Of a stretch of DNA of 64,000 nucleotides, positions 7,169-53,442 are shown in pieces (the stretch's first letter is position 1; the number at the start of each line of letters is the position of its first letter). The notes under the pieces were generated by a model. That model saw only the letters and a list, made by a program, of their open reading frames with translations, made no database searches and was not told the DNA's origin. Source of the DNA: Gautieria morchelliformis (lineage: Eukaryota > Basidiomycota > Agaricomycetes > Gomphales > Gomphaceae); the NCBI GenBank assembly GCA_015179125.1, contig WHVA01000031.1:124001-188000 (forward strand), written 5' to 3'. The translations under genes were made by a program, and so were the position numbers.

Positions 7169-7243
7169 GCCATAACTAAACTACTACAGACCTAGCTTAT
7201 CCTCATCACACCCTATACTCCACCAACTCAATACCGATCGACG

Positions 7244-7990
7244 ATGTCGAGTAGCAATAACACGTACAAGATCGATCCCTTGAACGGGGATAATTACGCG
7301 GCGTGGCGCCGGCGACTCGAGTGGATACTCGATGATTTAGATCTGTGGGACGTGGCTATCAGCAGGGAGACGGAACCGAGACCGGCAGATGCCGACAACG
7401 TCACTGCAACCGAGCAGCAGGAAATCAACGACTGGAGAAGGAAGGACAAGAAAGTTAGAAAAGAGATTTGCCTCAGAGTCGCCAATGAACAACTAGTTTA
7501 CATCAATCAGACGATGTCTGCATTTGCTGTATGGACTAGTTTACAAGCGATATTCGAATCTAAGGGAGCCGTGGGGATTGTAAATCTCCGAAGAGATTTC
7601 TTCCGGACGCTTGCCGAGGACAGCGTGAACATGGAGGAACATGTACGCAAGCTCCGTGGCATTCAACAGGAACTGAATGCGCGGGGACATTACATCAGTG
7701 ACACCGAGTTCTCGAACACGTTGCTGACGTCATTACCAGATTCTTGGTCGGCGTTTATTACGGCAGTAAACGCCAGTGGAGCCGGGACGACAGCTGATAT
7801 ATTAATAGCTTGAGTCCTCGATGAGGATCGAGCACGGAAAGCTGGATCGGCACGGCAGATGGCGCTTAAGGTGCAACAACGTCACAGGCCCAAGAAAGAT
7901 GACTCAGGAGCAACAAAGGGAAAATGCTGAAATTGCGGCAAGAAGGGTCATTACGTGAAAGACTGCTGGGTGAAAGGTGGCGGCAAGGAA
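7244..7990 (+). pseudogene. gag: Copia-1 gag (nucleocapsid) with two TGA codons
   Basis: Starts at ATG 7244, 89 bp past the LTR. The N-terminal block LNGDNYAAWRRRLEWIL is typical of copia Gag (UBN2-type). The frame meets TGA at 7811 in ...LIA*VLDED, where related Gag proteins usually have Arg, and a second TGA at 7928 inside the zinc knuckle (KC*NCGKKGHYVKDC), where Trp or a similar residue is expected. Past both stops the same frame continues into the protease/integrase part, so these are point lesions and not a designed Gag end. The CX2CX4HX4C ligands themselves are preserved. Confidence 0.9.
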
Positions 7991-9600
7991 GGCCAAGCAC
8001 CAAAGTGGTTCAAATCAGGAAACAAAGAGATGGTTAAACAAGCAGAAGAAAAGGACTTCGTGTTTGTATCTAAGGAGGTAGCATACAGTGCTATATCTGC
8101 ATCCGACTGGCTAGCCCATTCAGTGGCAACAACACATATAGCTCGAAGCCGAAACAATTTCGCTCGCTATGCCGAGGAACCATCAGAAATTGAAGGAATT
8201 TCACCCGGTGCGGTACTACATACACAAGGCCAAGGCACTATATACATGGAATTCAAGATCGGCGCCAAGATGAACACGATCGAACTACGTGACGTCAAGC
8301 ATGCACCAGATGCGCCGAACAACCTTATCAGTGTAGGGTGTCTAACTGATAAGGGCAACACGGACACATTTACAGGCACCGGTGTCGAATTCAAATCACG
8401 CGCCGGAGTTACTTTCGCACAAGGACAGAAGCGCGGGCGGCTATTCTGTATGAAGGCACGGGTCACTCAATCAATCGAGGCACGGGACTTTGCCGCAGCA
8501 GCAAAGGGACGGTCATGGGACAAATGGCACAGGATACTCGGGCACGTCAACATAAATTCTATAAAAATGGTGAAATCTAATGACCTAGTTACTGGACTCG
8601 AGATCGACGAGTCAAAAGAGCCAAGTCAGTGTAAAGCTTGCATACAAGGCAAACGGCATGTGGAGCCATTCCCCAAAAGAGCCGAGGACACTGTAGAACA
8701 GGTCGGTGACCTAACAGTATCCGATGTATGGGGGCCTGCCCAGACCGAGGGACCATCACGTGAAAATCACGGATATCAAATCCAGGTACACGGTCATTTA
8801 TTTCGGGAGCACCAAAGATGAAGCGCTCAAACACTTCGAGACGTACAAAGCATTCCTCGAGACCCAAACAGGTCAGAAACTGAAGAGGTTTCGCTCAGAT
8901 AATGGAGGGGAATATGTCAATAAAAATTTCAAGGAATTTTGTGCAAATTATGGCATTATCATGGAGACCACAGCTCCATACTCCCCAGCCCAGAATGGAA
9001 TCGCCGAACGACTCAACCGGACCTTACTCGAACATGCACGGGCAATGATATTTGCCAAGAACCTGCCAAAAATACTCTGGCCCAAGGCCGTAGCTTACGC
9101 TTGTTATATCAAAAACCGATTGCCCACGCGAGCGCTTGGAGATGACACAACGCCGTTCCAGGCACTATTTGGCAAGAAGCCAAACATAGTGCGTCTAGAG
9201 GAATTCGGGACAAATTGCTGGGTTATGGTGCTGGATCAACGTCGAGCCAAACTTGATCCAAAAGGAGAAGAATATATATTCGTCAGAGTAGCAGAACATG
9301 CAAAAGCCTGGAGGTATTACAATAAAGCCTCAAAGCACGTTCAAATCTCAAGAAATATCACATTCGACGAAAATGACAATCGACTCTACCCTATCCCAGA
9401 TAACGACGATGACGACAGTACTACGGCACCGCTCGAGGGGGAGCACTCACCGCGCGAGCATGTGCCAGACCCGATCCCATCTACCCCGCAGATGTCATCA
9501 CCCCAGGCGACGCCCGTTCCTGATCCACCTGAACAAGCGCCAGCTCCACAGATTCGACAGAGCGTGCGTATCACTCAAAGACCGGATTATCGGAAACTGA
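7991..9600 (+). pseudogene. pol: Copia-1 protease remnant, pre-integrase and integrase
   Basis: Continues the gag frame. The usual DSGA-type protease active site is not clear: SDWLAHSVATTHIA occupies the place, so the catalytic Asp-Ser/Thr-Gly appears degraded. A pre-integrase block follows (WHRILGHVNINSIK, then CKACIQGK supplying the Zn ligands). The integrase core has the first Asp in VSDVWGP, the second in FRSDNGGEYVN and Glu in QNGIAERLNRT. A net +1 frameshift near 8750 separates the first Asp from the rest. The integrase core frame runs from 8724 to about 9660 and ends in an acidic/proline linker. Confidence 0.9.
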
Positions 9601-9639
9601 ATGATTCAGGAAGCACCGAGCAGGTTTACATAATGAGAG

Positions 9640-10707
9640 AAATCGTCACTGAACCTGAGAATTACAGAGCGGCGGTATCACGTGATGCTGCGCCAATCTG
9701 GGAGAAAGCGATGGAAATTGAGATGGACCAACACAAGACGTTAGGAACATGGGAATTAACAGAACTACCACCCGGACGAGTAGCTATCAGTTGCCGATGG
9801 GTATACGCTGTCAAAACGCAACCGGATGGGCAATTCAATAAGGCTAAAGCAAGGGTTGTGGCTCAAGGATTCACAGAGGCCAGGGACGGATTACTACGAA
9901 ATAACTTCACCCGTGGTCAAATTCGATTCACTACGTGTTCTATTAGCCATCGCAAACACACTCGATTGGGAAATCGAAATGATGGATGTCAAAGGCACCT
10001 ACCTCAATTCAACCATAGATGAGGAGATCTACATGCGCCAGCCCGACAGTTTTGATGATGGATCTGGACATGTTCTAAGAATATACAGAGCGCTCTACGG
10101 ACTCAAGCAATCGGGACAAGCTTGGCATCAGCGCTTACGCAAATTACTACTCGACCTCGGCTTCCATCAAAGCACAGCCGATGAATGCGTCTACATCAGT
10201 CAAGATAAGGACTCAATCGAAGTCATATCAGTATACGTGGATGACTTCGGACTATTTGCTGATTCCAAAGGAGGGATGGTTAAGCTCAAGGGGGAGCTTC
10301 ATGGAAAATTCCCTTTAACAGACTTAGGAGAAATGAAGAAAATCTTGGGAATTAGGATTGAGAGGAATAGGGATGAGGGAACACTGATCATGTCTCAAGG
10401 ACATTACATCGACATCATACTCGATCGATTCAACATGGCTATGGCACATTCCATATCTACACCTCTGCACAAAATGATCAAACTCACAACACCTATGGAC
10501 TCAACAGGTGCAACTACCGAAGTACCCTATGCTAAAGCAATCGGATCGCTAATGTATGCAGCACCCAGCACGCGACCTGATTTGGCTTTTACCGTACAAC
10601 ATCTGAGCCAATTCACTACTACCTACGGAGCCGAGCACTGGACGGCGATCAAGCACGCGCTCAGGTACCTCAAGGGGTCACGTGATGACGGCATAACCTT
10701 CCAATGA
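9640..10707 (+). pseudogene. pol: Copia-1 reverse transcriptase
   Basis: Starts in the integrase frame with IWEKAMEIEMDQHKTLGTWE and the WVYAVK block. A net +1 shift near 9875, inside the AQGFTQRPGTDY region, moves it to the frame used from 9826. The catalytic centre SVYVDDFGLF and the first-Asp motif MMDVKGTYLNS are intact. The thumb/connection region ends at an in-frame TGA (10705-10707) just before the RNase H. Confidence 0.95.
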
Positions 10708-11256
10708 GACGCTGGTCTCGACCTTGAAATATTTGTTGACTCGGATTATGCTAATAGAAACGACACACTGTCTATTAGTGGCTATGTGGCTATACTAGGA
10801 GGGGGAGCCATTGCATGGAGTTCGAAGAAGCAGCGAACGATCGCGTTATCTACTACGGAGGCCAAATACATGGCACTCACCGAGGGCGCCAAGCAATTGA
10901 TCTGGCTGAGGCGCTTCATCGAGGAGCTAGGAATAGATCAAGCCCAGCCCACGTCACTTCGATCAGACAATCTAGGCGCCATCACACTATCGCATGACCC
11001 AACGTATCATGCGCGTACCAAACATATCAATGTCGCATATCACTTCATCCGTGAGAAAGTGGCCTCTCACGAGGCATCACTTACGTACGTACTGACGAAG
11101 GAGAACGTAGCGGACATATTTACGAAGGGATTGGACTTACACCAACATAGGTATCTATTAGGGAAATTAGGATTTTGCCGAAGAGACTTCTCGCTGAGGG
11201 GGAGTGTTAGTAATCGGGACGATGATACGGCCGAGGCAGAGCCGGCACGCACTTAG
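10708..11256 (+). pseudogene. pol: Copia-1 RNase H and polyprotein C-terminus
   Basis: In phase with the reverse transcriptase beyond the TGA at 10705. Shows the copia RNase H signature: VDSDYAN, then AWSSKKQRTIALSTTEAKYMA, then LRSDNLGA, and the closing block ADIFTKGL. The catalytic Asp, Glu and Asp are all present. The frame runs through the purine tract into the first 52 bp of the 3' LTR and stops at TAG 11254-11256. Confidence 0.93.
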
Positions 11257-11500: not shown

Positions 11501-12505
11501 TTACACGCAATACGCTCCCAAGGTGGACTCACAGGTAGCCACGCTGCAGTACTGTTGCGCGTCTGCGATCCTTCTTAGATCCACCCTTCTTTTGCGGCTT
11601 GTGCACACGCGTGCGGGTGGAGGGCGCGGGCTTAGGCGCCTGCGTGCGACGGGAGGGGCCAGCCCGTGTGTGGTGGGGCGGCACCTCCGGGACGACGTAA
11701 TCCCCGTCGGGGGCGTCCGCCTCATAAGCCTCGTCCTCGTCGTCCTCGTCGAGGACGATGTCACTGGCGACGGTCTCACTGCCAGTGAGACCGTCGCCAG
11801 TGACATCGCCAGTGAGTCACTGGCGACGTCCTCGCTGGCGTCGTCATCGCCAGAGATGACCGTGGCCGACATGACTTCGTCGGACGCGACACCCTCCGAC
11901 AAATTCTCGTCGACACGCTTTGTGTTTTCTGCGCTAACGCGCTGTGGCGCGGAGGGACGCAGAATGAGTTTTACGCGTCTGCGGGCCTCGGTGTGTCCCG
12001 CAGCTGGGGACCTTTTGTTGTAGCGGTCGCTGGGAGGTTGCGCCGCGCGCAGGCGGCGGGATGGCTCCGCCCGGTACTGCTGTGGCACCTGCGCCGAGAC
12101 GCCGCGTTCGCTGACCGACGCGTCCTTGTCGAGGACGATATCCTCGTTGGCAGCTACGCCACCGTTGGTCAGCCTGGGATGACTGGGGCTGATCGACGAG
12201 TGGTGATAGATACCTTGTTGACCTTCGCCTGAATACTCGTATGAGGAGTCCGTGTCGTCCGACTCGGGGTCCTCACCCTCCACATCTCTCATGTGTTCGT
12301 CACGGACGCGCTGTGGCGTGAATTGACCCGTTCCGCGCCCGGTACCTAGGGCTGCATTCCCCTGATAGTTAGGAACTTCGCGCCGTCTAGAGCACTGTTG
12401 GGGCTGTGATTTTGCCCACAATATGGGCTCTCGCCACCGCAACTGCATCCCTCTGGGTTTAGAGCTGCCTGGGTCGTCAACACCCTGCTTGAGAGGGGCT
12501 TTCAT
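11501..12505 (-). CDS. Unrecognised low-complexity 334-residue ORF
   Basis: A long open minus-strand frame with an acidic/serine stretch (EGEDPESDDTDSSYEYSGEG, about residues 75-95), a second Asp/Ser-rich stretch over the palindrome at 11756-11808, and an Arg-rich C-terminal third. I see no folded domain. High GC and simple repeats can keep frames open by chance, so coding status is uncertain. It starts about 1 kb to the right of the Copia-1 3' LTR and ends only 72 bp from it. Confidence 0.3.
   Translation of the reverse strand: MKAPLKQGVDDPGSSKPRGMQLRWREPILWAKSQPQQCSRRREVPNYQGNAALGTGRGTGQFTPQRVRDEHMRDVEGEDPESDDTDSSYEYSGEGQQGIYHHSSISPSHPRLTNGGVAANEDIVLDKDASVSERGVSAQVPQQYRAEPSRRLRAAQPPSDRYNKRSPAAGHTEARRRVKLILRPSAPQRVSAENTKRVDENLSEGVASDEVMSATVISGDDDASEDVASDSLAMSLATVSLAVRPSPVTSSSTRTTRTRLMRRTPPTGITSSRRCRPTTHGLAPPVARRRLSPRPPPARVCTSRKRRVDLRRIADAQQYCSVATCESTLGAYCV
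11756..11808. repeat. 53-bp perfect palindrome with 1-nt centre
   Basis: Arms 11756-11781 and 11783-11808 are perfect reverse complements (26 bp) around a single C at 11782. A second, slightly imperfect palindrome built from the same words (GCCAGTGA/TCACTGGC) follows immediately, to about 11830. It could extrude as a cruciform or fold as a hairpin in RNA. Confidence 0.95.
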
Positions 12506-12889
12506 GCCCGGTGCAATCGTCGGTTTGGGGCGAGTACCCAGCGAATATTTTCAAGGCGCACGCCCATCGCTTTGAATATATAACTGTAGAAGATATCGCG
12601 AAGGTGGGAATACCCATACCTTATTAGCAAAGAGATTTGAGATCGTTTTCCCCAGGAAGGCGCTTTTGATGAGGCTGTGAAAGGCGGCGCACACGGATCA
12701 CAATTCCATTTCAAGGCTGAAGATCCGGATGGTATGAGATCCCGATGGTTGGCTGATATATGCCGCCTGTCTGTATCGTTTTGTAGAACTCATTGTTCCC
12801 ACTGTAAACGGGGTCCTGAAGAGCATAAGTAAATTTGGGTGAGTCAGCCGATTGATCTGCACCATGTTTCACTCATTGTTGTCACATAA
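12506..12889. other. No gene recognised
   Basis: Only short frames and no repeats or clear signals. It separates the low-complexity ORF from the SDR pseudogene. Confidence 0.5.
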
Positions 12890-13877
12890 GCCGATCCCCC
12901 CTGATCCAGATCCTCGTAACTTCTTTACGTATTCAAATGTGGCTCCCCGTTCTTGTCTTTTTTAGCGCTGTATCTATTCAGGTGTCAAGTGGCTGATTGA
13001 TCGTTTCACCTGGCAGTTCTAGCGTTCAACGCGTCGTCGTAACTTCTTCTGTGGCAGCCATCCTCCGGCCTGTGGAGCATCAGACGACCCTTTCCTTCGA
13101 ACGAATTTTCCGCCCAAGAAGCGAAGATCAAGGGGAAAGACGCTACCTATATTCACAAGTACCGTGCGAGCAAGACGCTTTCTGAAAGAGGTGGATCAAA
13201 CGTGCGTGGTTGGCGACCCCCCTTACTTAGAAGAGCTCCGCCTTTAGCTGCATGGGATTTGTGGCCAAGAATCCGGATAATGAATAATATTTTTTTTGTG
13301 TCACTGTCTCTAGGTCTGGGGGGTATGCATTATTTTCTGTACAGATGTATTATCCCTCGTCAGCTGACTTGTACCGCGTCATCGTCGTGCTATTTGACAG
13401 CCTACGATCCACGAGACACCGAACGCGTCCTCACTCAACACACCCCTTCTAGAGATCTATGTCATGGTCAAAGGGACATCGCCTCCATGCGGGGGGGAAC
13501 TGGGTTGACGATCGAGACGTCGCAACGGCCCACGTGAATGCAATAGTCACCGAGGCGGCTGGAGGTGAACGCTTTATAGTTGCATCAGGTATGTACTTGC
13601 GTTTATTACAAAAGAAAAAGCTTACCTTGTGTGACATTTAAGCCCGTATACCAACCAAGGGATTATTGACGCAGTCCACGACGGAACGGCCTTGGACGCG
13701 GTGCTAGCTGCTCTTCCTAAAGGAACCCCCAGCGCGGGGAACAACGCAGTACACCCTGTGTTGCTTGATACCACGAAGGCTCGCACGGTGTTGGGGATGA
13801 AGTTCTGCCAGCTCAGCGAAACCGCCCAGGACACGGCCAGGAGCTTGCTGGCCAATGAGAAGGTTTTCGGATGGTGA
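12890..13877 (+). pseudogene. SDR (dihydroflavonol-reductase/GRE2-like) pseudogene, copy B
   Basis: Fragments in order are VQRVVVTSSVAAIL (13025 on), the catalytic YxxxK in KYRASKTLSE (about 13160-13190), then AAWDF|VAKNPDN (about 13245-13285), where one base is missing and the frame shifts. WVDDRDVATAHVNAIVTEA follows (about 13505), then an intron beginning GTATGT near 13590, and the final exon ending TGA 13875-13877. This is the signature order of extended SDRs that reduce aldehydes or ketones with NAD(P)H. The N-terminal Rossmann glycine motif is not found upstream. Frameshifts and the missing N-terminus make it a pseudogene. Confidence 0.7.
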
Positions 13878-14164
13878 AGCTTAGATGAAGCCGGCTTCAT
13901 TGTTGACGAGATATCCCGGAGCCAGTATCGTACCTAGGACTAGAACGTTTCTATGAAGAAGGATTGGATTGCGACGCTGTCAGATGTCTTGATCAGAACG
14001 GGAGGGTAGTGAAACACGCCTGGCACACGCACCGTTGAGTTTCTGACTATGAGTACACGCGAGATCTGCGAGCTCGATGCCTGATCATTGGCTATTCCCA
14101 AACGAAACATTCGGGCGACGCAGCTGCGCGCCGACCTGCGCATGGAACCTGCCTTTCGCTGCGA

Positions 14165-14355
14165 CGGAACAGCCTCGGACCGGGTGCTATCTGGTCTTCC
14201 TAATGGAACCCCCGGCGAAGGACGGAGTACACCCTGTTTTGCTTGATACCACGAAGGCTTGCACGGTATTGGGAATGAGGTTATGCCAGCTCAGCGAAAC
14301 CGCCCAGGACACGGCCAGGAGCTTGCCGGCCAATGAGAGGGTGTTCAGATGGTGA
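14165..14355 (+). pseudogene. SDR C-terminal fragment, copy C
   Basis: The third copy of the last SDR exon: HPVLLDTTKACTVLGM to ARSLPANERVF and a TGA at 14353. Upstream it is fused to a truncated copy of the start of the segmental duplication (13937-14160). The unit 'SDR tail plus start of duplicated segment' is therefore itself tandemly duplicated here. Confidence 0.6.
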
Positions 14356-14426
14356 AGCTTAGATGAGGCGGGCTTCATTGTTGACGAGACGCAATATCCC
14401 GGAGCCAGTATCGTGCGTAGGAATAG

Positions 14427-17034
14427 AACGTTTTCTATGAAGAAGGATTGGATAGCGACGCTGTCAGATGTCCTGGTCAGCACGGTAGGATAGTAAAACA
14501 TGCCTCCCACACGCACCGATTTGAGATGATCGTCGCAGACCAACATTTGAGCTTTTGACTATGAGTACACGCGAGACTTGCGAGCTCGACGCCTTGTCAT
14601 TGACTATTCCAAAACGAATCATTCGGGCGGCGCAGCTGCGCGGCGACCTGTGCATGGAACGTGCCTGTCGCTGTCGGCGGGGGCGCACCGCTCTCGGAAT
14701 GCGCGGGGTGCTGTGGCTGCGGGTCCGTGCGCGTCGGTGGGTGGGGAGTGCGGTTGCGGTGCGCCCTGGAGCTGGTGCTGGGACGCGGTGGGGCGGGGGT
14801 TGGGGGGTGCGCGTCGGCCGGGAGTGCAGGTGCGGTGCTGACGGGTGGTGGTGCTGGGACACGGTGGGGCGGGGAGTGGAGGGAGGGCGACGCGGGATGG
14901 GGCGAGGGTGAGGACCAGGAGGTGAGACAGTAACGCAATCTAGGAACCTGATGCGCGAGAGAGTTGAAACGGAAAGCCCTGCGACAGGTACTACGACGGG
15001 GATTAGCGGTCAAATTTGGTAGGACTAGAAGATGGTCACCGTCGAAGTCCATGTCGTTCTCAGGGTTCGAGCCCACATTGTTCATCCCCGCATGAGGAGC
15101 CATGCGTGCACAGCTCGTCCACGACATCAAATTCGCCAGTTGGGGTGGGGGGCGGGGGTCGGGGGTCTCTATCCCAAGGGGTGCCATAATGATACCCGTA
15201 ACGTACTACTCCCGCGCGAGTCGTTCACCGACGAGGCTGATCCTGCCACATTCATCCTCAAGTACCTGGGGATGGAGATATTTCAGCGGCGGTGAGGGTG
15301 GTGGGATTGAAAACTGAAAAGACGCACGTCTCTTTGAATATCCTCCAAAATATTTGCCTGCAGAGACATATCCATGTATACTGACCCAAATATCCAACAT
15401 AATTCGTCCTTGACGACATCCAGAACCCTCGGCACAATTACGGGGTTCTCTGTATAGCTGGGTCAGGTGCCATCCCCTTGCTCAAAGACGATGGACTCAC
15501 AGACAGTTGACTCCTTGCCAACGCTCCTTGGCATTTCTCTCGACAACGACAACATGATGGGGTTGCCTGAGCCTAGGAAAGGACGTATTGGCATGCTGAT
15601 ACTCGTAGGAGCGATTTGCGGGACCAAGGTTGAAGAAAAAGCGCTCGAGGGACGAGACTCTGCTGGTGTGGACAAGACTAACGTGGGAAGTGTCAACGAG
15701 GTTGACGGCGCTGGTCTGAAAAATCAGGTAGATAGATTGCCTAGGGGAACGGAGACTCACGATCGAGTGTTTCGAGTGACTGGTGGTGGGGGTGTTTGTG
15801 AACGGGTCTCAACGCAGTAAATTGACACAAATATTGGTAATATCCTAAATGGGACGGAAAAATAATTATTGTCACTGCAGAATACTTTTGTTGTAAAGTC
15901 ATGAAACGGCTGGACTTGTAATATTGAATCATAATATAAAGTTCAGAGTGCGCACAGACCACAGCTTAAAATTTCATCAATAGTTAACCAACCTCACACA
16001 ATATATCACGGAAGCCATAACATGAACTGAGAAGACCACGAAGCCCCGACAGCCGCCCGGGTTCCTTGCAAATCAAGGTTTCACGGACATAGATGAACCG
16101 GCCTTCGGAGTGCACAACACAGGTCAGACGGTTCGTCTCTGGAGTGGGAATCGAGGCGATCCAAAGATGTCCACGTCCTCAAATACTGACTCGCCCTCTC
16201 GAGTGCCACAGCGCAAGAGAGGGAGCGGAGCGTGAGGCACTTGGCAACGATTTGAAGGCGGAATTGAAATTGCAGGGTCTCCGACGCACGGGATACTCGG
16301 GTGCGGACAGATTTGGCGCGTCCTGGGCGTGCGATATGTAGATTATGCAAGCTGCTACCGCCTTGTGAGTGTGGCACGACTGAATATGGAGACTTATTTT
16401 GACAGCACCTGGCGAGGGCATGAGTATAAGCTGGATCCAGGTGGACAGCCTTCTAGAAGCATCGCGTTTTGGGGTTAATACCGGTAACTGAACTGGTGAG
16501 AATAGTGCTGTAAAGAAAAGCACATCGGCCTTGATCTGAACTGCACATATCTTGGGCGCGGAAACGATCGCCGCGCAATAATGTGCTGAAACAGACGTCG
16601 CTTCCCTTGTAAGAACGGAGGACCCTGGAGAGACGTGGTATTCCCTGCGACGCAGCGGAGTGACTAGCGTCCGATTTCGCGCAAAAACAACCGGAAAACT
16701 CCTCTTGGTACGTAGAGCTGGTTCTAGATGCTTCTAGGAGATCTGCGGCTCAAATTCGAGGACCGCAATCTGTGGTTTGGGTTACTGTGAGTTGGAATCC
16801 AGGCAGCCCAGAAAGGAACTTCGACTTCAGCTGATGTAATATGGGCGCCCGGGCCGATTAGAGTGTTCCTTTGTCGTCTCCAGGTAGACCACTGGCCTTG
16901 TTATCTGGTTTGTCCACATATCTTTGTCTCGTATTACACTGGCTAGTCTCAATGAAAAGCTACCGGCGCTCCCGTACATGCCTTGATATCATTGACTTCG
17001 TGGCGTGGGAGTTTGGCAGGCCGTTCTCTTCTTT
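14427..17034. repeat. Local segmental duplication, copy B
   Basis: Homologous to 2962-5795. It lacks the CACTA-like element at the left junction and the internal tandem duplication of copy A, but has about 200 bp of additional sequence near 16370-16630. It ends near 17034 at the same word (TTCTTTAG) where copy A diverges. Confidence 0.8.
14597..15187 (-). CDS. Proline-rich ORF of duplicated segment B, unrecognised
   Basis: 196 codons with the conserved block MAPHAGMNNVGSNPENDMDF near residue 30 and a long Pro/Ser/Thr/His-rich tail. It is the most continuous version of the ORF also broken up in copy A. There is no recognised domain. The tail follows strongly GC-skewed simple sequence, so real coding may end soon after the conserved block. 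Confidence 0.3.
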   Translation of the reverse strand: MAPLGIETPDPRPPPQLANLMSWTSCARMAPHAGMNNVGSNPENDMDFDGDHLLVLPNLTANPRRSTCRRAFRFNSLAHQVPRLRYCLTSWSSPSPHPASPSLHSPPHRVPAPPPVSTAPALPADAHPPTPAPPRPSTSSRAHRNRTPHPPTRTDPQPQHPAHSESGAPPPTATGTFHAQVAAQLRRPNDSFWNSQ

Positions 17035-17689: not shown

Positions 17690-18138
17690 AAGCGGTTGGG
17701 GAAGCGCCACATGTGGTCCTCCCAGCGGCGCTCTGTTGGACGGAGCGGCCTGCGGCTTCGCTCGCAGGCAGCCTAGGTAAACCCTTGGTGAGTTCCAGAA
17801 TCGCGGCTTTTGATCCATCTACTTATCATTGTCCAACCCCTTGAACAGAGTTGTCAAGTCACGACGGCACAGCTGAGTGAACGACTACCTATCCCAGAGG
17901 CTTTCGCCCCCCTTGATCTCCCCCCGCATAGGTGTTTTCCGGACCTTCATGCCTGCAGTACTACGCTGCAAGAGTACCCGGTAGTACCTTAGGGTACACC
18001 ACTGGTCTGCAGAGTGCTTCGCGCTCTCTGTCTCAGACTGGTGTAAACAATTTTTTCCCGAGTGCTTAGCACTGCATCAGTATGAGCTTTGCCTCATGCA
18101 TAAGCGCCCTCGATGCGCATAATTTTTTCCTCCCGCGC
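17690..18138 (+). repeat. Hammerhead repeat, unit 1 (ribozyme core deleted)
   Basis: Begins AGCGGTTGGGG, exactly like unit 2 at 18139, and the two align through GCGGCGCTCTGTTGGACGG to TTGATCTCCCC. Unit 1 lacks about 105 bp just after AGCGGTTGGGGAAGCG, which removes the ribozyme core. Its second half (17926-18138) is rich in small hairpins, for example 18011-18027, 18061-18073 and 18082-18097. A GCCTGCG/CGCAGGC hairpin is conserved in both units. Confidence 0.75.
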
Positions 18139-18198
18139 AGCGGTTGGGGTAGCGTTATCCCCCTGATGAGAGCTTTCGTCGGCTCGAAACCGCTATGC
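18135..18198 (+). ncRNA. Type III hammerhead ribozyme
   Basis: All core elements occur in the right order. Stem III is AGCGGT (18139-18144) pairing with ACCGCT (18189-18194). The predicted cleavage site follows T18145. Stem I is GGGG (18146-18149) with CCCC (18159-18162) around a 9-nt loop. The catalytic box CTGATGA is 18163-18169. Stem II is GAGC (18170-18173) with GCTC (18182-18185) around an 8-nt loop. GAAA is 18186-18189, with its last A pairing T18144. The conserved core positions match the hammerhead consensus; the cleavage-site nucleotide is U rather than the commoner C, which the H17 rule allows. Stem III is open at its ends, hence type III. The expected product is a self-cleaving RNA. 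Confidence 0.85.
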
Positions 18199-18545
18199 AT
18201 GCGTCTCCCCTAGCAACACTCTTCCCTACCCAATCTTCGGAGACGGCTGTCCGCGGTAGTTGCAAAGGTTGTGGTCTGCCCAGCGGCGCTCTGTTGGACG
18301 GAGCGGCCTGCGGGTTCGCTCGCAGGTAGCTTAGGTAAACCCTTGGTGAGTTGCAGAATCGCCGGTGTTGATCTGTCTACTCATTATTTGTCAAACTCTT
18401 GAACAGAGTCGTCAAGCCACGATCGTACAGCTGAGTGAACGATTGCATGTCGCAGAGGCTCCCCCCCTTGATCTCCCCCTCTTCTCTATCGCACAAGATC
18501 CTTTCCGCACTGGATGCCATAATATGCATAGGTGTGCACCTTCGG
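18139..18545 (+). repeat. Hammerhead repeat, unit 2 (ribozyme intact)
   Basis: Aligns with unit 1 at roughly 85% by eye over 18275-18479. After an insertion it may regain similarity at GCATAGGTGT (18524 on, compare 17926 on). With the core restored, the period would be about 560 bp. Two head-to-tail units with a hammerhead at the unit boundary fit either a dimeric satellite or retrotransposed circular RNA, or the two long terminal repeats of a retrozyme. No clear target duplication was found. Confidence 0.7.
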
Positions 18546-21371: not shown

Positions 21372-21402
21372 TCAGCGGAAACGGTATATCCATTGACCTA
21401 GG

Positions 21403-23028
21403 TGTCATGATTCGCTTATTCTGCGAATCATTTCACAGCACACAGCGAATGGCCTCCTGAACCAGCGAACGGCTTCCCGAACCAGCGAATATCTTGCCAA
21501 AATATTTGTCGCCATACTGCTTTCGCATTTGCTATTCGTATCATTCCTGCCAGGACGCCAGGTGTTGGGGCCCTCATCCATCATAGAACCCATCATCTGT
21601 TAAACTCCCACCCCATGACAGACCCAGATGCTCAGGATGCATTCGGATAGTGTCAGTTGCAGCCTCCGTGCAGGTTGGACTCAATGGGACTCGTACCACT
21701 GCAGGGCAGGATGAATTAGCTTCGCTGAAGTTTTCACTACACAGTTGTCATGACCCATTCATTTCTTGTATCCAGCTATCCCTGTTTTCCCTTTCACCAC
21801 CACCCTTCCATGTTCGCTCGGCTTCGCTCCATTCAATCCTTGCTCCATTCACTATTCGCCACATTCGCCAAATGACCATTCACTACTCGCATCATTCGCC
21901 AGTAGCCATGCCATCAAACATGATCGACATCCTTTACCTGGATTGATGGTTCATCACTGGTCCTATCATGAATTGCAAGGAGGTGCAGGCTGTCATGAGT
22001 CGTTTATTTCTTGTACCCAGCTATCCCTGTGTTCCCTTTCACCACTCTTCCATGTTTGCTCGTCTTCGCTCCATTCACTCCTCGCTCCATTCGCTATTTG
22101 CCACATTCACTCCTCGCTCCATTCGCTATTCGCCACATTCGCCATATGACAATTCGCTACTCATATCATTCGCCAGCAGGCACGCCATCAAACACGATCG
22201 ACATCCTTTACCCGGACTGATGGTTCATCACTGGTCCCATCATCTTCTCAACTCAACCCCCTTTGGGTGTTCCTATGGCCAGAATGCATTCGCGGGGCAT
22301 CCTACCCGTAGGTCATGTGGGATCAACCCAGCAGACGAAGAGTCCATGCAGGGTGGTGTATATGCAGGTCCTGAGGCGTGTTTTTGTACATAGGGGCCTT
22401 CGCCCTCTTTCCTCTCTGTCGTTTCATGTTTGCACCCCTCTTCCATTCTATTGTATGTCTATTTCATCTATTATGTATCCTGACCACGCACCCCTATCCA
22501 ACCCTGACTCCAGACGGCCTCTTTCCTATTCGCCAGCACCATATGAGCATTCGGTATAAGTAGTCTACATTTGCATGTATATTCTCCAGTTTAATTATCA
22601 TACGTCCATCTTGTGCAAACTTGACCTTGCTGTGACCATCGTCTTGAGCCTTTTCCTGTAGATTTATATCTTCGACCAGAAGAGGACTTAGGCATCACTG
22701 GTGAGTTCTCATACTTCATCTTTGTTACCTTAGCCTTCGAGTTATTTTCTGTGCTGTCAGCGAAGGGCTCCGAAGGAGTGCCTTCGCCGGCGAAAGGATT
22801 GTCGCTACTTAGACAACCTTTCCGTGACACCTTGCACGTTACATCGTCAAGTGCCATGGGCTATTTCGCTATGACTGTGGATCAGGGTGAATTCCTTTCG
22901 AGTAACCCTCTTACTTCTTAACCCTTACCTCTTCGGTACTGTTTGCTGGGCGTTTCGCTAGATCGGACACGCTATTCGGGCATTTGCCACTAACATGCGA
23001 TATTAACGCCCAAAATCCAATCTTGACA
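21403..23028 (+). mobile_element. Solo LTR of family LTR-B, nested in the hAT
   Basis: Starts TGTCATGATTCGC and ends CCAATCTTGACA, 1626 bp, with a perfect 5-bp duplication CTAGG at 21398-21402 and 23029-23033. No internal retrotransposon genes lie between the ends, so this is an LTR left after recombination. Related copies are at 33369-34397 (+) and 35915-37442 (-). The unit is internally repetitive (ATTCGCCACATTCGCC-type words, and two copies of a block around CATCAAACA(C/T)GATCGACATCC). Confidence 0.9.
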
Positions 23029-29496: not shown

Positions 29497-31593
29497 TCAA
29501 TCGGAGATGATGTCGCTGGGACTACGGTGTTTAGCGAATACATGGCGAAGGCAGAGCATGGCGACATCCCCTGAATCAATGTCTGAGAATGTCAGAATGG
29601 ACAGAGCCATCTTGGTTAGCCTGTCAACAATGACGAGGATCATGTCGTGTCCATCTGACGGGGGGAGTCCCTCGATGAAGTCCATGGAGATGGAGTCCCA
29701 AGGACGTTGGCTGATGGGTAGGAAGCGAAGAGGACCAAAGGGTTTGTGATGAATGGATTTAGCATGGCGACATTTGGAACGGGAACTGATGTAGTTGGTG
29801 ACGAAGGTGGACATGTTCGGCCAATGATACTGTCTCTGAATGTTTGTCATCGTCTTGCTGATCCCTGGGTGGCCTGCTAACTGATGATCATGCAGCGAGC
29901 GAAGGATGTCCAAGCAAATATCATTATGATCGGGGACATACGTTCGCTGCGTGTACAACAGCATTTTGTCATCCTCTCCAAGTGACCAGGGGTCTGGCTT
30001 CGCATTTGGAAGGGTGACCGCCATCAACTGAGACTGAAGACGGGTGATGTGGGCTGAGGACAAGGGATCAGTCAACTGGCCCTGTTGGATCGATGTCAAC
30101 AGGGATGCAGAGTCAAGGATGATGGCGCAAATGAGTTGCCCGGTCTTAAACATTGACTGGAAGTTGTGAGGATTCACCAATGCATAAGCACCATCCCCCC
30201 CTTTAGGGTACACATCGCCCCAATGGGTCAATGCATCAGGCTTTGTGCCAAGTCGCCCGGCTCGGTAGCGAATGATGTAGTTGAAACCTGACAGGTGTTC
30301 GGACCATTGAACCTGACGTCGGGTCAGCTGCTTTGTTGTCACGAAGTACTCAAGGTTCTTGTGGTCGGAGAGGAGAAGGATGACGTGGGATGCCCCTTCG
30401 AGGTAGTTTTGCCATTGCTTGAAGGCGCAGAAGATAGCAAGGAGCTCTTTGTCGTAGATCTCGTAGTTCATCTCGGCTGGTGCCATCCCTCGCGAATAGA
30501 AGGCGATTGGATGGATATCACCATCAGAGGGGGTGATCTGGGAGATAATGGCAGCGATGGCATAGTCAGAGGCGTCCGTTTTGATGACAATGGGGTTACT
30601 CGGGTCGAAGTGGATGAGGACGGGGGCTCTTGAGAATGCAGCTTTGAGTGCTTTGAAGGCCTCCTGCTGCTTCGCTTCCCAGGCGAACGGAGTATCCTTT
30701 CTGGTCAAGCGAGTGAGTGGCAGGCCAATGTCTGAGAATGAAATGATGAATCTTCTGTAGAAGTTTGTGAAGCCCAGGAATGATTGGACTTCGTGAATGT
30801 TCATTGGTACAGGCCACTTTGTGATGGCAGCTGTCTTTTCGATGTCCATGGAGACCCCAGCAGGAGAGATGATGAATCTGAGGAATTCGACCCAGTCCGA
30901 ATGGAAGAGGGACTTCTCTGGCTTTATGAAGAGGTTGTGCTTCCGAAGATGGGAAACACCCATTTGGACATGCTCTAAGTGATCCTTCCTGTTCTTTGAG
31001 AAGATCAGGATGTCGTCAAGGTAGACTACAACGAAGACATCAGCCATGTCTTGGAAGATGTCATTCATGAAGTGCTGGAAAGTAGCTGGGGCATTTGTCA
31101 ACCCGAACGGCATAACGAGATATTTGAAGGACCCATATCGAGTTTGGAAGGCTGTCTTCCACTCTTGGCCAGAGGCAATCCGAACATTGTTGAACCTGGT
31201 GTGAAGGTCGAATTTGGTATAGATGTTCACGCTTTTGAGTCGGTCAATAAGGCTCGGAATCAGTGGGATAGGGTACTTGTTCTTTCGCGTGATATGATTC
31301 AACCCTCGGTAGTCCACACACATTCGCAGTGTACCATCCTTCTTCTTTGCGAACACAACTGGGGCACCACCGGGTGATTGTGATGAGCAGATGAATCCCT
31401 TGCCAAGCATATCTTCGAGATAGTCGCGGAGCGCTTCTAATTTGCTGTTTGAGAGTGGGTATATGGGACCATGAGGTGGTGTGCCATCATTTTTTATCTC
31501 GATGGTGTGATCATAAGGGTGATGTGGGGGCAAGGCTTTGGCTTTAGCATGCGAGAAGATATCGAAGAAGTCATGGTACTCCTCTGGGACCAC
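29497..31593 (-). pseudogene. pol: Chromovirus reverse transcriptase, RNase H, integrase
   Basis: 698 open codons. The RT begins at EYHDFFDIFS, with KKDGTLRMCVDYRGLN, the first Asp in FDLHTRFNNVRI and the active site VVYLDDILIFS. RNase H has TDASDYAIAAI, YDKELLAI and SDHKNLEYF. The integrase zinc domain has HQLAGHPG, but the cysteine pair is reduced to RSKCRHAK, so one Cys ligand seems lost. The core has the first Asp in SMDFIEGLP; the second Asp lies in DIISD immediately before the TGA at 29497-29499. The usual motif is SDRG, so Arg CGA to TGA is the likely change. Apart from that stop this is close to full length. Confidence 0.95.
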
Positions 31594-32548
31594 AGCTCCT
31601 GTGGGACCACAGTTCTAACCATCTCTAACTCGTCCTTCGGTAGGGGGTTTTCGTGAAGGAGTGTAGTCGGAGCTGGTGCATTCATTGCCTACAGCACGAA
31701 GCAAAGTGGGTTCAGGGATGGTAGGGTGCATGTTTAACATGAAGGTTTCTTCTTCACCGAGTTTCATGATTAGCTCGAAGGCGGCCGCACTAATTAGGCT
31801 TATATGCGGTGTTGTCCTTCTTGTCGGAGGCAGATCGGGAGTCGAAGAATGGAATGGAAGTTGGTCATCGATCAGCGATTCTGTACATGGTGTACAGGGG
31901 CGAGAATGGCTTGGAACAGGCTCTGTTTTTGGTCGAATAGGTTTGGTTTCAATTATGCTTTCTTTGGTGGCTGGAAATGGATGGACGAGAGTATTAGGAA
32001 GCGATACGGAGGACTCAGAGGAGTGATTCTCGATCGGCGTGGTTGAGAGAAGTAATGGTTCGCCATCCACGTCGAACGTCTGTTCATAACCAGAAGGATT
32101 CAGAATAGGAGCGGGCGATGAAGTGACATCCGGTGGAAGGACCAGGATGTAAGAGAGTGGTCCAATCGCCATGTTCGGGATGTAACCCAAGGATGGCGGG
32201 GACAAGTGCGAACCAGGAACTGATGGTGGTGAAGTCATCGAGGCAGTGTGGAGTTCTGGAATACTGTCGAAGATAGCTGGAGGGGAAATCATCGTACAGG
32301 CCATGGCGACCGTCATATGTGGGAGCATGGAATCGGTGCTGGAAGGGAAGGTGATTGAGAGAACCCCAATCGATAGTAGGTTTCATAGAGTGAAGCCACG
32401 GGAGCCCGAGAATGATCATGGCTGAAGGGTGTAACTTTGTGACAAGTAGCGAAATGTCCTGCGAAGAGGAGTTGCTGAAAGTGAGACTAGTATCTAGATA
32501 TTTGTATTGCAAGCCATATCTAGCCATCACCTCAAGCATACCCTTCAC
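31494..32548 (-). pseudogene. Chromovirus protease remnant and linker
   Basis: The block LLVTKLHPSAMIILGLPWLH (about 32460-32400) followed by KPTIDWGSL is the C-terminal half of the gypsy aspartic protease. The DSGA active-site half is not seen. A Ser/Pro-rich linker (32328-31615) contains SGYEQTFDVDG, also found at 34403-35400 in repeated form. A frame change near 31600 joins ENPLPKDELEMVRTVVP to the RT. Confidence 0.75.
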
Positions 32549-32559
32549 TCTCAGTGCTT

Positions 32560-33368
32560 TCTTACTTTGCCCATCAGGCGCAAAGCAGATTTGCAGTCAC
32601 CTCGTCTGAATAATAGGCCCTGCAGCCTCTGGCAATCCTCTTGCACTTACGGCCAACTACGTAACAGGCGGGATAACTTCACTGAACCCATCAAACTGGG
32701 TTAGCATCATCGTCGCATAGGGAATTTGAGGACTATACCTTGGGGTTCTTTCCCAGTCCTTTCCATCGCTTCGCACCCTTTCGATGTCAGCGTGAAGATA
32801 GGAGCCGAGGTTGAATCTATGTCAGCCTCTGTGGGTACCGGTTATGAAATAGATGCTGAACTCTCCAGCCATACCCTCGCTTTCTGTATCTCCTTCGCTA
32901 ACTCATCCACCTCAGGTGGTCTTTTGAATTCCTGGTTGATCATCTCTTCAACCTGCAGCATTTTCCAAAGCTCCTCCTAGACCTCATGAATGAGCGAACA
33001 ACAAACGGGAAAGGAAAGAGCGGTACTCACTTGGACTCCTGCTGCATCAACCACCCACTGCTCGACATCCCTACGTGACTCTCCCCAAAGCTCCGGCCTA
33101 ACCTTCGATACCGTCTGTGATCGATCAAGGAGTGCTGAGTATCTGGGTGTTGTCATAGGGGCAGTACGCTTGGCTTGGGTGCTTAGATGGGTTCCATAGC
33201 CCCACTCCGCGCCGCATTTTTAAACAGAAGGAGAAGTTGTGCATGGACCATGCAGCAAGGCAGGGCCCAGACCTCAGAGATCCCATCGGGGGACCCATTA
33301 CGTCTTTAACACCTCCCCCCCACCATAGGATGCAGCGTCGTTGGACTCCGAAGCTAGGAAGGGGGTAC
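32560..33368. other. Unassigned retroelement-derived sequence ending in a purine tract
   Basis: On the minus strand, 32980-32830 reads ELWKMLQVEEMINQEFKRPP and onward as plausible coding sequence of unknown family. The last bases before LTR-B on the plus strand, CTAGGAAGGGGGTAC (33354-33368), look like a polypurine tract for a plus-strand element. So this stretch may be the 3' end of a different, plus-strand gypsy element, whose body is missing. Confidence 0.35.
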
Positions 33369-44248: not shown

Positions 44249-44564
44249 TGTTGGAGTCAGGGTCGGTAAGCGTTGAACGCAGGGCCAAGTAGGTTAGGGG
44301 AAGGATTTATCATTGTCTAGTAAAATAGCATTACTGGCCTCGGTCAAGTTTGACCGAGGCCCTATATCTACTCGCTCCACAGTCGCTAACCCCTCAGTGA
44401 ACTGATCGTTCACTGAGGTACGTGCCCCCGTCCCATTATGCATCCTAATGCTATACTTACTATTATGTGACTTCATTCCTAATAGGTAGCGTAGTTATAC
44501 ATACTCAGTGAACTGACCGTTCACTGAGACTTCATTCCTAATAGCACTGCGCATAACCGCTACA
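44249..44564 (+). repeat. Copia-2 5' LTR with strong hairpins
   Basis: 316 bp. It contains a perfect 12-bp-arm hairpin around GT (44336-44361, GGCCTCGGTCAA/TTGACCGAGGCC) and two copies of a 10-bp-arm hairpin CTCAGTGAAC/GTTCACTGAG (44393-44417 and 44504-44528). Confidence 0.95.
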
Positions 44565-44578
44565 GGTTATGGGCCCCG
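44565..44578 (+). promoter_or_regulatory. Copia-2 primer-binding site overlapping the gag start codon
   Basis: GGTTATGGGCCCCG follows the LTR end directly and is complementary to the initiator tRNA-Met anticodon arm. The ATG at 44569-44571 inside it begins the long gag frame. Confidence 0.85.
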
Positions 44579-46038
44579 CAGAGCCCACAACGTCTACCCC
44601 CACCTCCAAGTCGTTCGTCGTCCCGAAGCTGGCCAGGGACGGCACGAACTGGGTCACCTGGAAAAGTCAGACGTTAGCTACGCTGGCGGCAACCTGTGGC
44701 GCGAAGCGTCACCTCGAGGGGACCGCTCGGATCCCTCGCACGATCCCGACGTACCCTGACGGCTATACACTCACAGACAAGGAGGAAGAGGACCTAGAGG
44801 AACTCGAGAAACGCTGGGATGACTACAATCAGCATGAGGCAGCGATAATGGCACAAATATTTACCACTGTCCCCGATAGCGTCCTTATCGAAGTCCGCAA
44901 CCTAGCTACGGCAAAGGAGGTCTGGGAGGCCGTATGTGCAAAGCATGAGACCAGGGCACTCACGGTCAAAGTTGACATGCGACAACACATGTACGAGCTG
45001 AAATGCGAGGACGAATCGAACGTCCGCACGCACCTGGAGTCCCTCATGAGAATGCAGGAGCAACTCGCAGGGATGAACGCGGGACTCACTGATGATGACC
45101 TGGTCACCGTCATCCTCGGCTCGCTCCCGAAGTCGTATCGGCCACTCATCAATGCGATAACGATGTCGGCGACACACGCAAAGGCAAGACTCGAGCCGGA
45201 CCAGGTAGTCAGCACTCTAATCGACGAGTTCGAGCGATTAGCAATCGAGGAACAACAATTGAAGGCAAGTGAGAATGCACTCGAGGTGGTCAAGAATTGC
45301 AGAAAGCACCAGCCACGCAGCAGTAGTTCCAACACCATGCGGACAGATGTGGAATGTTGGAACTGGGGCAAAAAGGGGCATATCAAAGTGGATTGTCATT
45401 CTAAAGGCAAGAAAAAGGAGAAGAAGGATGAGGATAAGAAAGGAGGTGACTCAGCGAACACAGCGGTAGAGGGTGAGGACTTCGCATTTACCACGACGCT
45501 CACTGGGACCGCGCTTGCGCTGGGAACGAGTTGGTCAACGGGACGAGAAGTCGACGTTTACGACTCGGGCGTGTCAGGTCATATGTCACCGAGTAGGCAT
45601 CGCTTCATCACTTTCGCCCAGATCACGCCATGGACGGTCACTGCCGCGGACAAGACAGTCTTCAAGGCTACCGGGATAGGTAGCATGAAGGTCAGGATAC
45701 CTAACGGTAGAACAACAATGCACGTTACCTTGAAGGATGTGCTGTACTGTCCCGATCTTGCGTTTACGCTCGTCTCCCTAACGCGATGCGACGTGGCTGG
45801 CTACTCGGTTCTACTCAAGGGTCAGAAGTGCTTAATTCGAGATAAACGAGGGATGTTACTGGGACAGATCCCACTTTCGAATGGCCTGTACAAAGTAGAA
45901 CATCAGTCTACTGCAGCGGCAGCGAGTACTACACGGAAAGTACTCACATTGGACAAGTTACACCGCCGGATGGGACACATCCCCCCAGGCCGCTCGCAAG
46001 CTCATCCGGGACCGAGTCGTCACTGGACTGGATCTTGA
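44569..46038 (+). pseudogene. gag: Copia-2 gag and protease
   Basis: The 489-codon frame contains Gag (LARDGTNWVTWKSQTLATL, then VWEAVCAKHE and LGSLPKSYRPLINAI) and a zinc knuckle CWNWGKKGHIKVDC, whose second Cys is replaced by Trp. The protease active site is DSGVSGHMSP (Asp-Ser-Gly present), followed by the LKDVLYCPDLAFTLVSL block and pre-integrase LDKLHRRMGHIPP. A frameshift near 45990 cuts off the integrase. The start could also be a later ATG, but the frame is open from the primer-binding site. Confidence 0.92.
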
Positions 46039-46830
46039 CATGGCGAGTCAGCCAGGCTTTTGCACAGAGTGTGCACAAGCCAAACCTACCCAAAAATCCA
46101 TCCCACAGAAACGGGAGGGGCCGCGAGCCACCAAATTTGGCGAAAAGGTGCACTCGGACGTCTGGGGGCCTGCAAACCACCCAGAGCTACGATGGAAAAG
46201 ACTATTTCGTCAGTTTCACCAATGACTATAACCGGTGGACTTACCTGGTACCGATGGCTAGGAAGAGCGAGCGTTCAACTGCTACAAGCAGTATGAGGCG
46301 TGGGTTGAAACACAGTATAGCGCGAAGATAAAATGCTTACAGACTGATCGCGGGGGAGAATACCTCTCCGACGCATTCATGGCCCACCTGAAATCCAAAG
46401 GGACGATCCTGAGCCTCACAGTGCACGATACCCCTGAAGAAAACGGCGTATCAGAACGTTTGACCCGGACGTTGCTAGAACACGCACATGTGATGCTTCT
46501 AGCAGCTGGACTACCGAAGTTCCTCTGGACGGAATCGGTGCAGCACGCGGTCTGGCTGAAAAACCGGACTTCAACGCATGCACTCAACGGCAGGACACCG
46601 TATGAGGTTGTGCACGGCATGAAGCCGGACCTCACTGATTTACCAGAGTGGGGAACTAGAGTCTTTGTTCTAAAAGAAAGCAGCAGCAAGCTAGACTCGA
46701 AGGTGGATGAAGGAAAGTGGGTGGGGTATAGTGATGAGAGCAAAGGACACAGGGTCTACTGGCCTGGGAAATGCCGCATCACCGTGGAAAGGAACGTCAC
46801 ATTTGATGCCCTTGTCCTTGTGACCCCCAA
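45990..46830 (+). pseudogene. pol: Copia-2 integrase
   Basis: Pieces in different frames: CTECAQAKPTQKS and HSDVWGPA (first Asp), then GKDYFVSFTNDYNRWTYLV, then TDRGGEYLS (second Asp) and PEENGVSERLTRT (Glu). At least three frame changes lie between 45990 and 46320; from about 46320 the frame is long and open. Confidence 0.9.
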
Positions 46831-47925
46831 CGACGGTCTGACTGAGGGGGAGTCATCCACCCTAGGCACTCAGAACGCCGTCGGCGGCGCTCCTGCTTCT
46901 CACACACTCCACCAGCACCCGCCACTACAACCCCTGGACCCGGTAGCAGACCCCGCAGACACCTGGCAGATCGACCCCCTCGAAGGATTTGAGGCCGCGG
47001 ATCCCCCGGCAGACCTGCCCCAAGGAAGGGGCCACCGCACGTGGAAACCGTCCGCATATGTGCGGGGGATCGCAGACGGCGTGGGCAGCAGCACAGGCCA
47101 CCCACACGCACCCGCGTACCCCCGAGGTCTGCCGATGCCCACCAGCGACTCAGCCCTAGTCACGCTGACAGGGGGCGCAGGAGATACCACCAGAGCTGAG
47201 GGGGAGTCTCGTCATCCCACTAGGCACACGACGGCTGCTGCAGCGCACAGTCCAGGGCCTGACCCAACAAACCTCGATGATGCCCGTTCCTGCGCTGACT
47301 GGCCGCAATGGGATGCGTTAATCAGGCAGGAATTGGACCAGCACGCGACGTTGCGCACCTGGGACCTCGTCGAAGCCCCAGATGGTGCAAACATCGTAGG
47401 GAGCAGGCTCATGTTCCACTACAAGCATGACGCGGAGAGAAAGGTTGTAGTCAAAAAACTAGGCTCGTTGCGCAAGGATTCTCACAGGCACAGGGAATTG
47501 ACTACAATAAGACCTTCTCTCCCACAGCAAAGCTCTCCGCTATCCGAATAATCGCAGCCATCGCAGTCCGGAATGACTGGGAACTCGAACAAATGGATAT
47601 AGATGGTGTGTACTTGCATGCACCGATCATGGAGACTATATACATGTGACAGGCCAGGGGATATGAAGCCCCTGGAAATGAGCACAAGGTCTGCCGGCTC
47701 AACTGTGCGATATATGGGTTGAAGCAATCCGGCAGAGAATGGTACGACACACTGCGTGGGTTCATGAACCAGTTTGGCTTCACGCGCTGTGAGACGGAAC
47801 ACGCAGTTTTTCACAGATATGCTGGATGGGACGCACTTATTGTCGCGGTCGACGTCGACGATCTGACCATGGCCGGAAGCTCGAAGAACGCGATCCTTGA
47901 GTTCAAGAACGAGCTATGTACGGTC
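46831..47925 (+). pseudogene. pol: Copia-2 linker and RT N-terminal half
   Basis: The linker is Pro/Ala-rich. RT starts IRQELDQHATLRTWDLVEAP. A frameshift near 47455 precedes RLVAQGFSQAQGIDYNKTFS. The first-Asp motif is QMDIDGVYLHAP. A TGA at 47646 sits in IYM*QARGYE, where Arg is usual. The active site reads VDVDDLTMAG rather than YVDD. The frame is then interrupted at about 47926. Confidence 0.9.
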
Positions 47926-51300: not shown

Positions 51301-51314
51301 GGATGTCCCTCCTC

Positions 51315-53235: not shown

Positions 53236-53442
53236 GTCCGTGTTGTAGAAGAGCTTCTTGTCCTTGGCTGTGACGTTGGTTTTGCGGTCAGCGTGACCGT
53301 GGAGTGAGGTGGAAGTGCATTGAATCGAGATGTGCGCATCGCTGAGGCCACATTTGAGGCAGAGCTTAGGCCTTGTGTTGTGCTCTGCCTTTGATTGAAA
53401 GGGCGCACGGGGTGGTTGCCGCTGTGGCGTGGGTTGCCCTGG

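Follow-up and report, generated by a model that had tools for sequence, protein, structure and literature searches.

A family of type III hammerhead motifs in a short dispersed element of the fungus Gautieria morchelliformis

The genome of the basidiomycete Gautieria morchelliformis harbours a family of type III hammerhead motifs, and most of the copies sampled sit in a non-coding element of about 490 bp with fixed ends. One member of the family lies in the stretch of 64,000 nucleotides analysed here (the window, which is C349:124001-188000 in a 122-Mb assembly of 1113 contigs), and this short, non-autonomous element would be the source of the window hammerhead. On balance we favour the view that a hammerhead-bearing, non-autonomous element spread as DNA in a Helitron2-like manner, that its transcripts are cut in cis and that the window copy is a relic. 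Rather more tentatively, we suggest that Helitron2-like rolling-circle transposons of a fungus may have taken up a type III hammerhead and preserved its activity as they spread again and again, and that hammerheads may travel in DNA elements too, besides retroelements and viroid-like RNAs.

The hammerhead of the window and its genomic family

The window holds a CUGANGA...GAA core, a UH before the cleavage site and three helices with stem III open outward, which are the structural features of a type III hammerhead (Table 1). An earlier note on this DNA had described every element of such a ribozyme, in order and with three stems, and the letters bear this description out; the elements are as described there, while the range of 18135-18198 given for them is four bases too wide on each side.

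Table 1. Features of the hammerhead locus in the window
Feature	Position	Strand	Basis or remark
Complete type III hammerhead ribozyme	18139..18194	+	window sequence; RF00008 29.6 bits; descriptor match; genome family
Stem III, AGCGGT / ACCGCT	18139-18144 / 18189-18194	+	read from window sequence
U16.1 (T18144) and cleavage base H17 (T18145)	predicted cleavage after T18145	+	window sequence
Stem I, GGGG / CCCC, 9-nt loop	18146-18149 / 18159-18162	+	window sequence
CTGATGA core	18163-18169	+	window sequence
Stem II, GAGC / GCTC, 8-nt loop	18170-18173 / 18182-18185	+	window sequence
GAA	18186-18188	+	window sequence
3' module common to window and ~490-bp element	18195..18339	+	ends GGTAAA where element ends CTAAA
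TGTTGGA, 3' partner of element 5' end TCCAACA	18292..18298	+	family inverted repeat, window letters
3' hairpin between inverted repeat and terminus	18306..18327	+	family pairs, window letters
Broken upstream hammerhead (stem III 5' strand, cleavage base, GGGG)	17691..17701	+	catalytic core and rest gone
198-bp direct repeat, first copy (part of 3' module and following sequence)	17712..17909	+	558 bp before second
198-bp direct repeat, second copy	18270..18467	+	84% identical to first

The Rfam model RF00008 matched the window copy at 18138-18195 with 29.6 bits (E 7.6e-4 for a 1.6-kb stretch against 4,227 families), and a scan of the whole window at the gathering threshold listed nothing. The gathering score of this model, 48.5, is a curated database cut-off and not a structural feature. 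The earlier note had named a covariance score below threshold as grounds for giving the motif up, and the score does fall below it; we overrule this outcome on the evidence of the family, on which, since the Rfam score lies under the curated cut-off, the case for the window hammerhead rests. Elsewhere in the genome the same model gave 32.5 bits for one copy of the element (L016) and 34.6 bits for one listed match, with 68 of 23,104 candidates scored. When both strands were searched with covariance models, no minus-strand ribozyme was found at the window or in L016. The gain in folding of the 68-nt hammerhead region over shuffled sequences is modest (z -1.89, with 11 of 200 shuffles equally good).

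That the motif is more than chance, as had been claimed, agrees with two counts. A strict type III descriptor matched once in the window and gave a single match, with both strands searched, in 300 windows simulated from a first-order Markov model, and a pattern of the ribozyme 3' half was found at 89 places in the genome with at most three mismatches, 37 of them with none, as against 0 for the reversed control. DNA similarity to 18100-18260 was detected at 40 places scored out of 115 candidates in the genome search. The motif indeed sits in a chromosomal repeat, as the first reading had it, being part of a genome-wide family and flanked by a multi-kb repeat.

For the comparison of copies, 56 hammerhead regions were extracted, of which 54 fit a substitution-only pattern; 45 of these were aligned without gaps and 9 of the 54 were left out of the ungapped table. 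All ribozyme features are intact in 21 of the 45 aligned copies and at least one is lost in 24. Copies were selected by the ribozyme 3' half, which biases the conservation seen in that half; outside the selection pattern lie the stem III 5' strand, the cleavage base and stem I, and position 7 was left open in it. A working hammerhead can have anything but G at H17 and is free at position 7. Of the 37 copies with at least five of six stem III pairs (8 of the 45 ungapped copies stand outside this count), 17 have A as cleavage base, 15 have C and 5 have T, and G does not occur. The full set of 45 gives A 24, C 15, T 5 and G 1; the single G belongs to L088, in which an insertion-like change has displaced the 5' half. 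In the same 45 copies position 7 is T in 34, C in 10 and A in 1. The T of the window is thus the rarest of the three cleavage bases in the family. From these letters and the family together we find it convincing that the window motif is a genuine type III hammerhead, predicted to cleave.

Constraint on the ribozyme was examined in 16 elements (L012, which is the same site as L006, was left out here and kept in the 17-element, inverted-repeat and hairpin sets). Variants common to at least two copies fall in 2 of 37 required ribozyme columns versus 73 of 432 other columns, a difference that is not significant (Fisher p 0.098, and p 0.37 against the 3' part of the element alone), and both shared variants in required columns keep pairing as G-U. 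Single-copy changes, at 7 of 37 required versus 101 of 432 other columns, show no significant difference either, and such evenness across columns is what decay after insertion would give. The comparison is suggestive only of a ribozyme kept under constraint.

The dispersed element and the relic in the window

Comparison of the dispersed copies yields sharp common ends. Seventeen complete elements measure 402-506 bp; 16 of them start with TCCARCA, and all close with CTAAA or with a form that differs from it by one letter. In 15 of the 17 the ribozyme core starts at an offset of 266-319, and in L007, which carries a deletion, at 215; the fixed pattern misses the core in L020, where one base is missing. 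No complete element holds more than one hammerhead, even with a pattern allowing four substitutions. In the genome, the 5' end of the element has 67 matches and the 3' end 52, each versus 0 for the control. Terminal direct repeats were not seen in the element, a poly(A) tail was absent from the 13 copies examined, no other RNA family was credible in the one element scanned (L016), and in a test for a tRNA-derived element no tRNA was found within the window. Copies with the 5' end only and copies without it both occur, some of which later insertions may explain.

The first seven bases, TCCARCA, are the reverse complement of a TGYTGGA near the 3' end and form with it an asymmetric inverted repeat, which is exact in 19 of 25 copies (the A/T form in 16, the G/C form in 3). 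In the 20 copies whose 3' end could be located, this repeat mostly lies 41 bp from it (17 copies), with a spacing of 42 bp in two others and 32 bp in the last. In the alignment of 17 elements 85.7% of the cells of the 3' hairpin are paired; its outer, closing pair is always intact, as A-U in 10 elements and as G-C in the other 7, and one inner pair is broken (C.A) in 10 of 17. Across the entire structure tested, eight cells are changed on both sides, which none of 500 shuffles reached, although related copies inflate this count. Two of the five covariation measures are no higher than in the shuffles: the number of pairs changed on both sides (2) was reached by 187 of 500, and that of additional pair types by 499 of 500. 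The RNA of the whole element folds better than shuffles (z -2.40), and no strong structure was found for the 3' module alone (z -0.13).

Sixteen insertion sites were queried with joined flanks; uninterrupted relatives were fetched for six, and 13 plus 4 sequences were aligned. Insertion was near-precise at four of the six resolved sites, clean at L010, L015 and L029 and clean within 2 nt at L022. In detail, the junctions of L010 and L015 are continuous in the relatives, bar single mismatches and a one-letter ambiguity at the 3' end of L010, at L029, where the junction is clean, a single mismatch and a single gap lie in the 5 nt upstream of it, and L007 and L030 show differences of several nucleotides at the junction which divergence of the target may explain. 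A target-site duplication was not evident: a 5-mer is found within 20 nt of both sides in 4 of 17 copies versus 3.0 expected from swapped flanks. Two copies (L015, L025) have 6-nt repeats near their ends, and both of the L015 repeats are present in its empty site. The base before the 17 elements is G in 8, A in 5, T in 3 and C in 1, and the base after them T in 7, G in 6 and A in 4; the canonical Helitron1 target, A^T, occurs at 2 of 17, and the elements do not keep to it. Flanks are shared by L006 with places on C178, C149 and C179, and the flanks of L029 recur at C599 and C491 (both) and at C1023 (one). As some copies share flanks, copies outnumber independent insertions.

At the window locus homology to the dispersed element begins with the first base of the ribozyme at 18139 and ends at the 3' terminus at 18338/18339, a span matched by 14 of 18 short-type loci (L034-L051), and the homology that would hold the 5' inverted-repeat partner TCCAACA is missing. 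The sequence on either side is part of a multi-kb, low-copy repeat that occurs chiefly on contigs C349, C149 and C224. The related loci L033 and L032 have one full hammerhead each, accompanied in L033 by two truncated copies, and the fetched parts of L052 and L053 contained none; L032 also has what we take to be a LINE-like reading frame, which gave no match to the window. By its sequence the window copy reads as a chimeric relic, hammerhead and 3' module only, inside this repeat, and the predicted ribozyme is probably still able to cut in cis.

Excision of a unit requires a tandem pair of active ribozymes. With its single intact hammerhead and broken upstream piece, the window locus is not expected to yield a unit-length circular RNA, a possibility that was considered and rejected, since one complete hammerhead alone cannot release such a unit. 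The suggestion of a small and perhaps circular RNA produced at this place is not supported: the upstream fragment lacks everything past the stem I 5' strand, and the complete elements (n=17) have at most one hammerhead each.

Two sampled loci contain pairs of hammerheads. In L054 two elements of the same orientation (50-540 and 606-992) lie 65 bp apart with nearly intact hammerheads, and this is the only fetched pair that might release a unit; L055 has two decayed hammerheads (307-334 and 526-553), which are separated by 219 bp, lie in another repeat context and have A in place of the majority G at several sites.

At 21402-23028 of the window lies a sharp-ended repeat of about 1.63 kb, present in very many copies (4,947 first-look candidates, 40 scored), of which the full-length ones scored are about 90-95% identical. 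Numerous diverged copies of 12300-15100 occur on C349 at about 14, 75, 118, 124-127, 228-239, 331-338, 361-364 and 375 kb, and others on C149, C224 and a small number of additional contigs, as if this were a special chromosome region. Pfam domains of LTR retrotransposons and DDE transposases were found in the window, and a Tnp2 transposase in one sampled locus. Retrotransposon frames are seen at 7196-11256 and 44557-49554 (both copia-like) and at 29497-32596, which we take, by eye, to be gypsy-like; the outer limits of all three were likewise drawn by eye and are presumptive. A DDE_Tnp_4 remnant lies at 57870-58517, and frames at 50058-53678 resemble a tyrosine-recombinase (DIRS-like) element by eye, with no Pfam domain in the two frames tested.

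Mode of spread and alternative origins

The dispersed element shares with Helitron2-like elements an asymmetric inverted repeat near the 3' end, a hairpin near the terminus and insertion without duplication or loss of the target, and to judge by these letters its ends resemble fungal Helitron2-type elements more than retrozymes. Spread as DNA by rolling circle appears the most likely mode because of the fixed ends, the lack of a target duplication, the near-precise insertion and the Helitron-like ends. The element begins with TCCARCA, has its ribozyme core starting near position 300 and TGYTGGA 41 bp ahead of the 3' end, and closes with a hairpin and CTAAA; its ends and empty sites are seen directly, and the Helitron2-like machinery would be borrowed in trans. 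Helitron Rep proteins are abundant in the genome (865 candidates, of which 150 were scored, all 150 over the cut-off). Among these 150 no autonomous Helitron with the ends of the element was found, nor, by eye, any Helitron within 10 kb of element 5' ends, bar one on C368, next to an element that is complete on its own. Two sampled Helitron loci proved to be different families. The hammerhead would cut transcripts running through a copy, dividing the element RNA into a 5' part of about 300 nt and a 3' part of about 190 nt. Such cutting would process or destroy the transcripts and, in tandem copies, might rarely release a unit.

Alternatively, the family could be an RNA-borne, non-autonomous retroelement, SINE-like or retrozyme-like; the hammerhead would then process its RNA, and the enzyme of another retroelement would copy that RNA into DNA. 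We regard this as unlikely, but as deserving serious attention, for the hammerhead-bearing mobile families described in the cited accounts are retroelements (PMC4918200, PMC7229834, PMC7761336, PMC6431247). The better-than-shuffled folding of the element RNA would also suit it, as would the tandem pieces at the window and L033 loci and the tandem elements of L054, whose hammerheads are 471 bp apart. It has to face, however, the absence of target-site duplications above the control, the clean empty sites of L010, L015 and L029, the limit of one hammerhead per complete element, the lack of a poly(A) tail in the 13 copies examined and the presence of 5'-only copies besides those without the 5' end, some of which later insertions may explain.

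The remaining alternatives concern the nature of the hammerhead itself. Quite improbably, it would be a host-adapted regulatory or processing RNA at some loci, with the repeat merely its carrier; the two shared variants in required columns, which both keep pairing, fit such a role, but the copies lie in differing flanks and more than half of those aligned (24 of 45) have lost at least one ribozyme feature. A genome-copied remnant of a viroid-like RNA or mycovirus is very improbable, even though about 490 nt is close to the length range of viroid-like RNAs. Replication of circular viroid-like RNAs in fungi is on record (PMC11721086); here, however, the hammerhead is on one strand only, both having been searched, a 28-nt motif has no exact match in viral contigs, and the ends of the element are fixed and do not fall at the cleavage site. 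Finally, it is scarcely credible that the motif is a chance resemblance and never was a ribozyme: the Rfam score under the curated cut-off, the one descriptor match in 300 simulated windows and the non-significant constraint test would allow it, but not readily the 89 near matches in the genome, the absence of G at the cleavage base in 37 copies and the variation of position 7.

If the Helitron2-like, DNA-borne origin is true, the ribozyme would serve a DNA element as a tool that acts on RNA, which might for example cut read-through transcripts and so spare host genes or hide from silencing. The copies would also offer dozens of natural variants in which cleavage can be set against the age and activity of the copy.

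Comparison with known hammerhead systems

In the cited literature retroelements, several of them with a circular RNA stage, are the main explanation for genomic hammerheads; a large family whose ends are like those of DNA transposons would call for a different account of why its ribozyme is retained. The titles and abstracts covered by our literature search, mostly outside subscription journals and bioRxiv preprints, include none that joins hammerheads to Helitrons or describes this element family, and in the accessible text of publications holding both words, hammerhead and Helitron, none links the two.

Plant LTR retrozymes, as described in the cited account, have two LTRs of about 350 bp, each with a hammerhead, together with 4-bp target duplications, a PBS and a PPT, and plant genomes contain from none to more than 100 retrozyme ribozymes each (PMC4918200). 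The element resembles them in being a short non-coding mobile repeat with a type III hammerhead (PMC4918200), and differs in having at most one hammerhead (17 elements), no terminal direct repeats that could be seen and no 4-bp target duplication. The analogy with plant retrozymes hinted at in the earlier note thus breaks down over terminal repeats and target-site duplications. The metazoan non-LTR retrozymes, according to the account cited, are likewise short non-coding repeats bearing a hammerhead, of type I and in tandem repeats (PMC7229834), whereas here it is of type III, and single and dispersed in the 17 complete copies. Penelope-like elements and Terminons are also mobile with a hammerhead, but the cited descriptions give these retroelements type I minimal hammerheads (PMC7761336, PMC6431247), unlike the type III motif found here.

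Among fungi, hammerheads have been reported in multicopy interspersed repeats of Yarrowia lipolytica and at five Hammerhead_3 loci in Pleurotus ostreatus, and have been filtered from mushroom transcripts (PMC3088659, PMC5040776, PMC8893723). These hammerheads of Yarrowia lipolytica and Pleurotus ostreatus lie, like ours, in fungal chromosomes; as far as the cited accounts go, the repeats there were not dissected.

From fungal Helitron2 and FoHeli the element differs in its terminal letters and in its size, as no Rep/Hel gene fits in about 490 bp. It also carries a hammerhead, none being mentioned for these elements in the available parts of the account, and its inverted repeat is 7 bp long, against 12-16 bp in the Fusarium Helitrons described there (PMC5148889). 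With the non-canonical fungal Helitrons (Helitron2, FoHeli) it has in common the asymmetric inverted repeat, which in fungal Helitron2 is placed 20-40 bp from the 3' end, and the precise insertion, known there from precise pre-insertion sites (PMC5148889). As far as that account describes them, one of the two fungal Helitron2 groups, in Fusarium, had no insertion preference that could be established, as is the case here, and no 3' hairpin, and it is the other non-canonical group that shares a hairpin with our element (PMC5148889).
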